Below are positions 4,649 through 49,571 of a stretch of DNA of 56,126 nucleotides, piece after piece. A model generated the notes under the pieces. It was not told where the DNA came from and did not search any database. It was given only the letters and a program-made list of their open reading frames with translations. A program made the translations under genes and the position numbers. Every line of letters starts with the position of its first letter. Position 1 is the first letter of the stretch. Source of the DNA: a candidate division Zixibacteria bacterium HGW-Zixibacteria-1 (GTDB taxonomy: Bacteria > Zixibacteria > MSB-5A5 > GN15 > PGXB01); assembly GCA_002838945.1 (NCBI GenBank), contig PGXB01000021.1:1-56126 (forward strand), in the 5' to 3' direction.

Positions 4649-5584
4649 ATGAATGCACATGCCCGGTCTGGAAAAAAATATTTATTTCTTTTCCTTGCAG
4701 TCGTTTTCGGCCTGACATTGCTGGCTTCATCTGCTTTCTCCGGTGACCCGGAAAAAGCCAAGAGTTTCTTTAATTCCGCTTTGACCCTGCAAAAAGAAGG
4801 TAATGACTCGCTGGCCGTCAACGAGTATAAGCAGGCCATCAAAGAGGACCCCCAGTTTATCGATGCCTACATCAATCTGGGCTCGATCTATTTTGGAGGT
4901 AATAATCTCAACGAAGCCGTGACCCAATTCAAGAAGGCTACCGAAGTTGCCCCCGGCAATCCTGACGCCTGGGCCAATCTGGGCAGGACCTATTACAAAC
5001 AGAAAAAATATCTCGAGAGCGAACAGGCTTACAAAAAAGCCCTCGAAATCAAAAGCGATTACGTCGAGGTCTATAAGGATTTGGGATTGATCTATCACAA
5101 ACAAAGTAACTGGCCGGCGCTGGTGGAAAATATGGCCAAGTACACTGAAAGTGTTAAGGACGATTATCTTTCGTTATATCTGCTTGGAAAGGGCTACCAG
5201 AATCTCAAGAAGTATCCCGATGCCATTGCGGCCTATAATCAAACCATCAGCCTGAAGCCTGACTATTTCAATGCCTATAACAGCCTCGGACAGATCTATC
5301 AGAATCAGAACAAGAATCTTGATGCTTACAAAATGTTCCAGAAAGCGGCCAATATCAGCCCGGATAATTATCTCACTCTTTATAACATGGCTATCTCATA
5401 TGAGACCGAATATCAGGAGGACAAGGATAAAATCGATCAGGTCATTGCCAACTGGGCCAAGTTTGTCAAAGTTGCCAAAACTAACCCGAAAGCAAAATTG
5501 ATTGTCGGCGGCGCTGAAGAGCATCTGGTTGATCTGAACGAATTGAAGACACATTACGAAGAGGAAGCGGCCTCTAAATTATAA
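4649..5584 (+). CDS. Exported TPR protein
   Basis: This protein of about 311 residues has an N-terminal signal segment (basic start, then FLFLAVVFGLTLLASSAFS) followed by about six TPR units from residue 32 to 280, for example AYINLGSIYFGGNNLNEAVT and AWANLGRTYYKQKKYLESEQ. It probably acts in the periplasm or at the outer membrane as a protein-interaction scaffold. The ATG at 4649 is chosen over an in-frame TTG at 4646 because AAGGAG lies 7 bases upstream of the ATG. It follows purE by 85 bp and ends at a strong terminator. The partner is unknown. Confidence 0.85.
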   Translation: MNAHARSGKKYLFLFLAVVFGLTLLASSAFSGDPEKAKSFFNSALTLQKEGNDSLAVNEYKQAIKEDPQFIDAYINLGSIYFGGNNLNEAVTQFKKATEVAPGNPDAWANLGRTYYKQKKYLESEQAYKKALEIKSDYVEVYKDLGLIYHKQSNWPALVENMAKYTESVKDDYLSLYLLGKGYQNLKKYPDAIAAYNQTISLKPDYFNAYNSLGQIYQNQNKNLDAYKMFQKAANISPDNYLTLYNMAISYETEYQEDKDKIDQVIANWAKFVKVAKTNPKAKLIVGGAEEHLVDLNELKTHYEEEAASKL

Positions 5585-5601: not shown

Positions 5602-5630
5602 AAAAAGCCCGCCTTATGGCGGGCTTTTTT
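5602..5630 (+). terminator. Rho-independent terminator after the TPR gene
   Basis: Stem AAGCCCGCC / GGCGGGCTT with a TTAT loop is followed by six T. The A-tract on its left lets it act in both directions. It closes the purD-purE-TPR unit. Confidence 0.92.
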
Positions 5631-5709
5631 ATTGCAGGTAACACACCGGCTCTTTTGCTTTAAACCATAATTTGATGTAACATATGTTAATACATTGTTA
5701 AATAAGCTA

Positions 5710-5738
5710 TTAACAATAGCCAACACTAAAAATATAGT
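5710..5738 (+). promoter_or_regulatory. Candidate promoter 1 in the 5631-5963 intergenic region
   Basis: TTAACA (5710-5715), exactly 17 bases, then TATAGT (5733-5738): each box is one mismatch from consensus. It points into the hairpin unit at 5737-5815 and not to any coding sequence. Confidence 0.4.
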
Positions 5739-5815
5739 CGACAGCCCGGGAGTAAAGGAAATAAGGATGACTGCTTCAAAAAGAAGCAAAAATATGCCGG
5801 GACACTCGACTTTTT
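5737..5815 (+). ncRNA. Structured element 1 (possible small RNA or terminator)
   Basis: Nested pairings are visible: GTCGA (5737-5741) with TCGAC (5806-5810), CCCGG (5745-5749) with CCGGG (5797-5801), and inside these TGCTTC / GAAGCA (5772-5788) over an A5 loop. Five T follow immediately (5811-5815). A promoter-like sequence lies just upstream, with predicted start near 5745. No coding sequence is convincing on either strand. It does not resemble SRP RNA, tmRNA, RNase P or a riboswitch class I know. The call rests on structure only. Confidence 0.3.
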
Positions 5816-5816
5816 C

Positions 5817-5845
5817 TTGACAACTCGAAGTATCTAATTTATTAT
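5817..5845 (+). promoter_or_regulatory. Candidate promoter 2 in the 5631-5963 intergenic region
   Basis: A perfect TTGACA (5817-5822), 17 bases, then TATTAT (5840-5845). The predicted start, about 5852, coincides with the base of the long hairpin at 5852-5934. No plus-strand gene follows for tens of kilobases. Confidence 0.45.
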
Positions 5846-5851
5846 GATAAT

Positions 5852-5934
5852 GAAAAAGAGAGTTCTTCTTTGAGATCCCTGGGTCCAACTTAATCCCCTC
5901 TGGATCCAGCCAAAGAAAACTCTCTAAATTTTTC
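5852..5934 (-). terminator. Candidate terminator of the 5964-7196 gene
   Basis: On the minus strand this long hairpin starts about 30 bases after the stop codon, and its 3' arm AACTCTCT is followed by TTTTTC. It is longer (83 bases) than most intrinsic terminators. Confidence 0.45.
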
Positions 5935-5946
5935 TGCCCCTTTTTT
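5852..5946 (+). ncRNA. Structured element 2 (possible small RNA)
   Basis: An almost continuous stem spans 5852-5934. GAAAAA pairs with TTTTTC, AGAGAGTT with AACTCTCT, CTTCTTTG with CAAAGAA, and inside these CTGGGTCC pairs with GGATCCAG (one G-U). T6 follows at 5941-5946. A consensus promoter starts exactly at its base. On the minus strand the same hairpin could serve as terminator of the gene ending at 5964, which is the simpler reading; both may hold. Confidence 0.3.
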
Positions 5947-5963
5947 ATCGGACGAATAAGATT

Positions 5964-7196
5964 CTACTGATCGAATTCAACCGATTCAAAATCATCCCAG
6001 TCGACAACTATTTCATCACGACCGTCCATGACAATGATGCCTTTATTGTCGCTGTCAACATCGTTGGAGCCTCTCAGCTTAAAGGTCCGGCCGTCCTTGA
6101 GTGTCACCATACTTGTCCGCGACGACATCTTTTCGATCGCTTTAATCATGCCGAATTCGATGTCGAATTCCACATCGCGCATATCGCCGTTCAGAATCTC
6201 CCAGGTAAATTCTTCGTCGGAATCCCAGACAATATTACCGGCGTACTTCTCGCCGCCCTCGGTAATAACCGTGCCATGCAGCTTCTTGCCGCCGTCGAAA
6301 TCATTATAGGTCATATTGCCCGGAGGTTCCGAAAAATCCAGCCTGTCAAACCCGTCCCAGTTGACTCTCACCGATCCCAATTTTAAATCGGAAATAACAA
6401 TCCCGCGATTGCCGCTGTCGATATCATTCGAGTCATCCATCTCCATCGTCTTGCCGTTTTTCAGTGTCACTTCCGCTGAACTCGATGACCTTCTCTCGAT
6501 AGAAGCAATATTACTGAATTCGATTTTTCTTTTGCGGCGGCCTTCCCGCCCGTCGAGAATATCGCCGTCGAAGGTTTCATCCATATCCCAGCCGATATAG
6601 CCGCTGAATGTCTCTCCCCGCCGGGTGGTCAGGGTGCCGTAAAGTCTTTTTCCGAATGCCGACTCTTTTTTGGGGGCGTTCATAAACTCGATATGATCGA
6701 TCTCATCCCAGTATATCTCGATAATACCCTCTTTGAGATCATCAATAAGTATTTCCCGGTTGTCTTCGCCGATATCGCCGGAACCGCCGCTCAGTTCCAC
6801 TTCCTCACCCGATTTCAATTCAAGCATGACGGTGTTGTCCCCGGCCGGAGACAATTTGGCGATATGGCCCATTCTGATACCAGCTTCAGCGCTGGTGAAA
6901 CTCCAGATATTGTCACCTTCGCTGTAAATGGTCATACCGAATATCTTTACCGACCTATCCCTCCGGTCATTATCACGCCGGCGATATTTCCGGTATTTCT
7001 TGCCCTCCAGCTCTTTGGTTCCATCAAGGAGATCACACCAGGATGCCTCATTCTTGTCCCAGCGAATGAAACCTTCCAGAACCTCATCATCAACCGTATA
7101 AATTTTGCCGTAAAGCTGCCCTTCGTCGGCCATGGCCACTGCGGACAGTATCAACAACCCCATTAAAGCGCCCAGGGAAATTACTACGGTTTTCAT
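5964..7196 (-). CDS. Secreted protein with three tandem repeats, unknown function
   Basis: The 410-residue product has a signal peptide (MKTVVISLGALMGLLILSAVAMA) and then three related units of about 110-125 residues. Each opens like LYGKIYT, LYGTLTT or LHGTVIT and continues G-x-I-x-W-D. Each then has a stretch like VTLKNGKTMEM or VTLKDGRTFKL with N-D-(I/V)-D-S-x-N-(R/K)-G-I and ends near WD-x-F-(D/E)-x-(L/V)-(D/E)-F. The units are acidic and probably beta-rich. I do not recognise a named domain. The ATG has GGAG 8 bases upstream. It appears to be a single-gene unit. It may be a periplasmic or surface stalk, but that is a guess. Confidence 0.85.
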   Translation of the reverse strand: MKTVVISLGALMGLLILSAVAMADEGQLYGKIYTVDDEVLEGFIRWDKNEASWCDLLDGTKELEGKKYRKYRRRDNDRRDRSVKIFGMTIYSEGDNIWSFTSAEAGIRMGHIAKLSPAGDNTVMLELKSGEEVELSGGSGDIGEDNREILIDDLKEGIIEIYWDEIDHIEFMNAPKKESAFGKRLYGTLTTRRGETFSGYIGWDMDETFDGDILDGREGRRKRKIEFSNIASIERRSSSSAEVTLKNGKTMEMDDSNDIDSGNRGIVISDLKLGSVRVNWDGFDRLDFSEPPGNMTYNDFDGGKKLHGTVITEGGEKYAGNIVWDSDEEFTWEILNGDMRDVEFDIEFGMIKAIEKMSSRTSMVTLKDGRTFKLRGSNDVDSDNKGIIVMDGRDEIVVDWDDFESVEFDQ

Positions 7197-49494: not shown

Positions 49495-49571
49495 TGGTGG
49501 GCGATACTGGAATCGAACCAGTGACCTCTTGCATGTCAAGCAAGCACTCTAACCAACTGAGCTAATCGCCC
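49495..49571 (-). tRNA. tRNA-Val (GAC anticodon)
   Basis: The acceptor GGGCGAT pairs with ATCGCCC, followed by A and an encoded CCA (49495-49497). The anticodon stem CTTGC / GCAAG encloses the loop TTGACAT, so the anticodon is GAC, which reads GUC and GUU. The T arm has GGTTCGATTCC. It is 77 bases long with CCA. Confidence 0.96.

Follow-up and report, generated by a model that had tools for sequence, protein, structure and literature searches.

A hairpin RNA in a Zixibacteria intergenic gap is very likely a diverged copy of a multicopy RNA family with a conserved C-rich loop

Does the gap at 5631-5963 of this Zixibacteria contig encode small RNAs and, if so, of what kind? The gap is part of the window, the whole stretch of 56,126 nucleotides that was analyzed. 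It is flanked by a gene for a TPR protein (4649-5581, + strand) and a convergent gene for a 410-aa protein with no Pfam match (5964-7196, − strand), the latter being found in 36/40 genomes. A terminator-like hairpin with a strong symmetric GC stem and a T-run stands 3' of the TPR gene at 5602-5631. The first-pass annotation had proposed two units in the gap, each with a promoter pointing into a hairpin with a T-run, and had suggested that they encode one or two undescribed small RNAs. Both promoter-like sites are present: TTAACA-N17-TATAGT at 5710-5738, belonging to unit 1, agrees with the consensus at 10/12 positions, and TTGACA-N17-TATTAT at 5817-5845 on the + strand, belonging to unit 2, agrees at 11/12. 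Five promoter-like sites were counted in the 1-kb region compared to 1.7 (sd 1.2) in shuffles. An automatic terminator scan, which allows loops of 3-8 bases only, gave no terminator-like site in the region. Elsewhere in the window, a 167-aa frame at 265-768 on the − strand was recognized by eye as resembling a REP-associated tyrosine transposase.

The two hairpins with T-runs both exist but are of unequal strength. Unit 2 (folded from 5850 to 5950) reaches −30.1 kcal/mol with a z of −4.94, and 0/200 shuffles fold equally well. Unit 1, which comprises its promoter-like site, a weak hairpin, and a T-run at 5710-5816 on the + strand, folds (5739-5822) at −17.2 kcal/mol with a z of −1.31, and 21/200 shuffles are equally good. 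A DNA search that covered 60 genomes (its own and relatives) did not recover unit 1. No counterpart of its promoter-like site was found in G001, a genome of the same genus, and the local alignment of unit 1 with that genome scored 22, a value reached by 13/200 shuffles. Unit 1 is therefore unsupported as a gene: it was rejected as a second small RNA since conservation is lacking already at the genus level and its fold is only slightly better than those of shuffles, and it is likely a chance pattern. In the G001 and G005 loci (L200, L202), where no unit 1 was seen, a C/T-run resembling the unit 1 terminator tail directly precedes TTGACA. Thus, the C/T-run at the end of unit 1 may instead belong to the promoter of unit 2.

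The predicted transcript of unit 2 is 5852-5933 on the + strand, with its start placed by the distance from the −10 box and its end in the T-run. Its hairpin occupies 5857-5925. An alignment of six sequences showed a nearly invariant lower stem and an upper stem with compensatory changes. The lower stem is formed by 5857-5873 and 5910-5925 (both + strand), and 12 of its 16 pairs never vary; the bulged C at 5865 in its 5' arm is invariant across the six aligned window-type copies. The upper stem is formed by 5879-5887 and 5901-5909 (+ strand), with both sides changed in 4/9 pairs. Between its arms lies the apical loop (5888-5900, + strand), whose core is invariant in the six copies and keeps the letters CCCCUCU; the conserved C-rich core of the window copy is UCCCCUCU at 5894-5901. 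The T-run that follows the stem (5929-5933, + strand) is likely the site of intrinsic termination.

Unit 2 was recovered by the same DNA search in five other genomes of the family, namely G001, G005, G009, G012, and G002, with E values of 3.8e-8 or better. All five copies adjoin a homologue of the 410-aa gene and are preceded by TTGACA and a TATA-type box. In a sixth relative, G003 (L035), the corresponding site holds a more distant copy. Altogether, 20 loci of the 410-aa gene were fetched; the hairpin stands beside the gene in seven, counting that of the window and all from the family of the window genome, and is missing in 13. The local alignment of unit 2 with G001 scored 135, which was reached by 0/200 shuffles, and all 7/7 window-type copies have a TTGACA promoter-like site of at least 10/12 at about the same place.

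The six-sequence alignment contains 25 pairs, and 96.6% of its 148 cells are paired. When the partners were slid by 1 to 3 columns, only 29.1-60.1% of the cells were paired, with 0-1 pairs changed on both sides. Compensatory base changes in relatives, whose lack the first-pass annotation had named as telling against a small RNA, are present: five pairs, in nine cells, are changed on both sides. This number of cells was reached by 0/500 shuffles and the number of pairs by 11/500. The further pair types in the alignment number 11, which is lower than in most shuffles (13.7). Taken alone, compensatory counts from six sequences amount to modest evidence.

A covariance model of the six window-type copies detected a second kind of hairpin, referred to as A-type, in most relatives. 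At E ≤ 1 this model matched 69/98 genomes, six training genomes included. The window's own genome (G000) has an A-type copy at G000:C52:3262-3347, with a DUF1573 gene on one side and an rtcB gene on the other. Another model, R2, was built from 40 A-type sequences with the window copy excluded. At E ≤ 0.01, R2 matched 107/132 genomes of the phylum Candidatus Zixiibacteriota and gave no match in the other 25/132. R2 also recovers the window copy, at 34.6 bits and E 2.1e-5; because the model does not contain that copy, its recovery places the window hairpin in the family. The matches on unit 2 cover 5854-5939 with the model that includes the window copy and 5852-5934 with the model that does not.

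The exact A-type loop pattern was looked for in a collection of 84,980 species and occurred in 64 stretches, 50 of them labelled Zixibacteria or Zixiibacteriota. Another 13 of the 64 carry other phylum labels or none and were matched by eye to genomes in the phylum search. A loop match in Gammaproteobacteria (L154) was rejected as a member, being a probable chance match that folds at −11.0 kcal/mol and has no stem. The pattern had 0 matches in viral contigs. Genomes hold one to four copies of the family, with four in G008. In two related genomes, two copies stand nearly in tandem, about 290 bases apart (L259 in G111:C2 and L260 in G110:C60). One of the G008 copies (L266, G008:C1:150734-150814) adjoins an integrase-like gene and a helix-turn-helix-like frame, as judged by eye, and for this reason some copies may move with mobile elements.

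These comparisons make it very likely that the window holds a diverged member of a hairpin RNA family that occurs in multiple copies in the phylum Zixibacteria. However the RNA acts, we are highly confident that unit 2 is a genuine RNA gene and belongs to this family, a judgement made from sequence comparison. Of the one or two small RNAs that had been suggested, unit 2 has stood, with its conserved hairpin, own promoter, compensatory changes, and phylum-wide family, and unit 1, weakly folded and unconserved in G001, has not.

The part of the RNA that is kept across the phylum is the loop. The family consensus is GGUAG-UUUCCUAGCCCCCU-CUACC with the core CCCC(C)UCU. The full A-type loop is UAGUUUCCUAGCCCCCUCUA; the loop region of the window copy differs from it (AACUUAAUCCCCUCU), and the loop of the G003 copy, CUCCUAUCCCCUCU, is intermediate between the two. 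In the window-type copies, the 5' half of the loop has changed and the C-rich core alone is retained. One feature by which membership was judged, a C-rich core CCCC(C)UCU enclosed by a stem that pairs, is found in the window copy at 5894-5901.

The stems, by comparison, are exchanged. Another 42 matches were read, four of which are places already counted under other locus ids, and with the A-type and window-type copies added, 113 sequences were split into arms and loop. From these, 39 representatives with under 72% arm identity were retained. A C-run of at least four C is present in the loop region of 39/39 and of at least five C in 36/39, and CCCCUCU occurs in 34/39 (counted by eye). Three copies (L269, L284, and L291, in G086, G117, and G057) retain the C-run but have another sequence, or none, in place of the 5' half of the loop, so that conservation shrinks to the C-rich core. 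RNAalifold found only 11 pairs on the mixed alignment A3 (55 rows from about 70) since MAFFT cannot align unrelated stems; therefore, folding with swapped arms was used instead. Alignment A2, which contains antisense self-hits, was left out. The native hairpins of the 39 representatives have a mean energy of −29.1 kcal/mol (sd 3.1), and the 1482 chimeras carrying another member's 3' arm have a mean of −18.4 kcal/mol (sd 4.6). No chimera folds as well as the native hairpin for 22/39 representatives. For the other 17/39, 1 to 13 chimeras do, and some of these certainly carry arms of related stems. An identical loop on freely exchanged stems separates the working part of the RNA from its scaffold with no experiment needed.

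The surroundings of 112 placed copies, with 209 flanking reading frames, were compared. A weak match in which the loop is absent (L099) was left out of the context and promoter counts, and L154 was left out of the alignments. A protein cluster of 52 is found upstream, and its tested member is DUF1573 (PF07610, E 3.6e-17); the 45 members listed are all codirectional with the RNA and 51-317 bases away. Downstream, 22 convergent genes form a cluster to which rtcB belongs. Elsewhere in the class, other families have a gene for a LuxR-type response regulator upstream (cluster of nine; one member tested), and some copies precede a gene with a protein-kinase domain (cluster of five; one member tested). 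A promoter-like score of at least 9/12 was obtained for 38/62 A-type and 19/41 divergent copies, and shuffles equalled it in 37% and 42% on average; for these copies, the two-box score alone provides weak support for a promoter. TTGAC lies within the upstream 60 bases of 7/7 window-type, 55/62 A-type, and 18/41 divergent copies (shuffled means 0.5, 3.0, and 1.9). The T-run at the 3' end is present in 7/7, 59/62, and 32/41, respectively, as a TTTT run in the window-type and A-type copies.

How might such an RNA act? The compact form of the RNA, with a C-rich loop exposed by its terminator hairpin, points to pairing with G-rich mRNA, and it is moderately probable, in our judgement, that unit 2 acts in trans as a small RNA, its loop serving as a seed for G-rich mRNA sites. 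An RNA of about 80 nt would be transcribed alone from its own promoter, and its terminator hairpin would display the C-rich loop. This seed would pair with AGAGGGG-like, G-rich sequences close to where translation starts on a group of mRNAs and so block ribosome binding on them. An RRM-type protein could take part, and copies with different promoters could feed different signals into one set of targets.

Exact and near complements of the loop in its own genome and 40 relatives gave no conserved mRNA site and no conserved long antisense partner. In the 40 relatives, the near-exact complements fall opposite members of the family, and scattered single sites make up the rest. The lack of a conserved long partner fits either short seeds or a protein partner. 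In the window's own genome, the loop pattern with three mismatches is rarer than its reversed control (86 versus 290). Apart from the RNA itself, the only near-complement there (one mismatch or none in 14) is at G000:C15:23774-23787, which complements the wider loop at 17/19 positions (counted by eye). It lies in an intergenic hairpin (G000:C15:23743-23833; L166:1470-1560) downstream of a sigma54-activator gene, the + strand of which complements the A-type loop at 17/19. The match is lost in the G001 counterpart (L220), and this site was rejected as an antisense partner and is regarded as incidental. A G-rich cluster at G000:C31 was also rejected as a target, as it consists of intergenic repeats for which a link was not found. 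A global anti-Shine-Dalgarno action was rejected as well because, among 479 upstream stretches, the usual ribosome site is not of the G-rich seed type, AGGGG being present in 12/479 and AGGAG in 58/479. As no conserved long complement was found and G-rich motifs do not serve as ribosome sites in general, the RNA would need either a short seed that acts on selected targets or a partner protein. A search for Hfq found none in 30 relatives (0/30), the same search detecting Hfq in 5/14 control genomes, and RRM_1 proteins are encoded in 20/21 genomes.

The nature of that partner bears on the strongest of the other explanations, namely, that the RNA is a ligand or decoy for a protein. CsrB-type RNAs titrate CsrA, and a single conserved protein that binds RNA, such as an RRM protein, could likewise read the loop UAGUUUCCUAGCCCCCUCUA and be titrated by the several copies of the RNA. 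We regard this as a possibility of secondary rank. The loop of 18 nt is nearly invariant as a whole on its exchangeable stems, which is more constraint than a short seed requires and would favor a protein partner, and a conserved complementary partner was not found. RRM_1 proteins are encoded in 20/21 genomes (G000 and 19/20 relatives), with five matches in G000 and up to six per genome, and the RNA itself has up to four copies per genome. However, the window-type copies retain the C-rich core only, and a strict protein site would be lost there; moreover, each RNA has one site only, unlike CsrB. A broader and somewhat more speculative idea, which we consider unlikely, is that Zixibacteria possess a phylum-specific hub of RNA control in place of Hfq-dependent or 6S-type global control: one ultraconserved 20-nt loop, carried by interchangeable hairpins at as many as four loci per genome, would be read by one dedicated partner, either a protein or the ribosome.

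It is improbable that the hairpin is a mere transcription terminator, perhaps a bidirectional one, for the 410-aa gene or the upstream gene. On both strands the stem is followed by a T-run, a further match of the model (30.9 bits) falls on the − strand of the window, and copies stand at gene ends in other genomes. Terminators, however, do not keep their loop letters or an upstream TTGACA promoter, and here an identical loop is found beside unrelated genes across the phylum. The TPR gene upstream already has its own terminator-like hairpin, and 13/20 loci have the 410-aa gene without unit 2. Still less credible is a short 6S-like RNA that binds RNA polymerase in place of 6S RNA. The strong conservation and the asymmetric internal loop would suit it, and 6S RNA (RF00013, >46.4 bits) was found in 0/40 relatives and not in the window, an absence that is weak evidence as the model passes its cut-off in only 4/14 control genomes. 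The RNA is only about 80 nt long, a single hairpin with a small internal loop, occurs in several copies in some genomes, and is constrained in its apical loop rather than in a central bubble. That promoter 2 and its hairpin are a chance pattern is scarcely credible: nothing favored it after comparison, conservation in relatives, compensatory pairs, and arm-swap folding all oppose it, and recovery by a model not containing the window copy refutes it for unit 2.

The trans-acting small RNA thus favored was compared to known families. Against Rfam release 15 (4227 models, gathering score as cut-off), the window had one match only, a tRNA at 49498-49571, and nothing in 5631-5963 reached the gathering score, in agreement with the earlier remark that the gap does not match SRP RNA, tmRNA, RNase P, or a known riboswitch. 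At a permissive threshold there were 32 rows, all below gathering, the best of which rest on the terminator hairpin at 5602-5631; this hairpin accounts for many low-scoring matches to leader and sRNA models. Six A-type or window-type loci gave no Rfam match, and 18 loci of divergent copies gave one tRNA only. No description of a Zixibacteria small RNA, noncoding RNA, or riboswitch was found in the full-text literature (mostly non-subscription, preprints excluded). The hairpins make up a new RNA family whose kind is known and whose design is unusual. As far as the searches reach, it is the first small-RNA family described for the almost uncultured phylum Zixibacteria, and it brings a covariance model, promoters, and a loop that can be tested.

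Among the closest known systems are the alpha-r14/cuckoo RNAs of Alphaproteobacteria (NfeR1, CcsR), which also combine a conserved C-rich loop, divergent stems, and multiple copies. Alpha-r14 is described as having an ultraconserved C-rich loop motif on stems that differ highly in sequence (PMC10746234), and CcsR as occurring in several copies in one host (PMC10253847). The alpha-r14/cuckoo motif is CCUCCUCCC, which is present in 0/39 of our representatives, whereas the core here, in another phylum, is CCCC(C)UCU. Alpha-r14 has three hairpins and the window RNA one; the CcsR/CIN1 locus has an adjacent short DUF1127 gene, whereas the window RNA is flanked by a TPR protein and a protein without a Pfam match. 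As motif, hairpin number, and partner gene differ, the window RNA, judged by its sequence, is not a member of alpha-r14/cuckoo. The NmsR RNAs of Neisseria are siblings that carry UC-rich anti-Shine-Dalgarno sequences, one of which lies in a loop (PMC5362039). They differ from the window RNA in having three stem-loops, two copies, and another sequence. The window RNA has a C-rich exposed loop like those of LhrC, RNAIII, and RsaE, and no Rfam match links them. Both LhrC of Listeria and the RNAIII/RsaE-type RNAs of Firmicutes use exposed C-rich (UCCC) loops for pairing with ribosome sites rich in G.

The phyla Bacteroidota and Zixibacteria belong to the FCB group. In Bacteroides, FopS is reported as a 14-member sRNA family of about 65-70 nt with canonical promoters, bound by the RRM-1 protein RbpB (PMC11697453). 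The family described here resembles FopS in its multiple copies and promoters, and the RRM_1 proteins encoded in 20/21 genomes would be candidate partners. The seed of FopS is a single-stranded 5' end before the terminator hairpin, whereas the 5' end of the window RNA lies in the stem and its conserved letters are in the apical loop. If an RRM protein is the partner of the Zixibacteria RNAs, the Bacteroides pattern of multicopy sRNAs with RRM proteins and no Hfq would extend to another FCB phylum.
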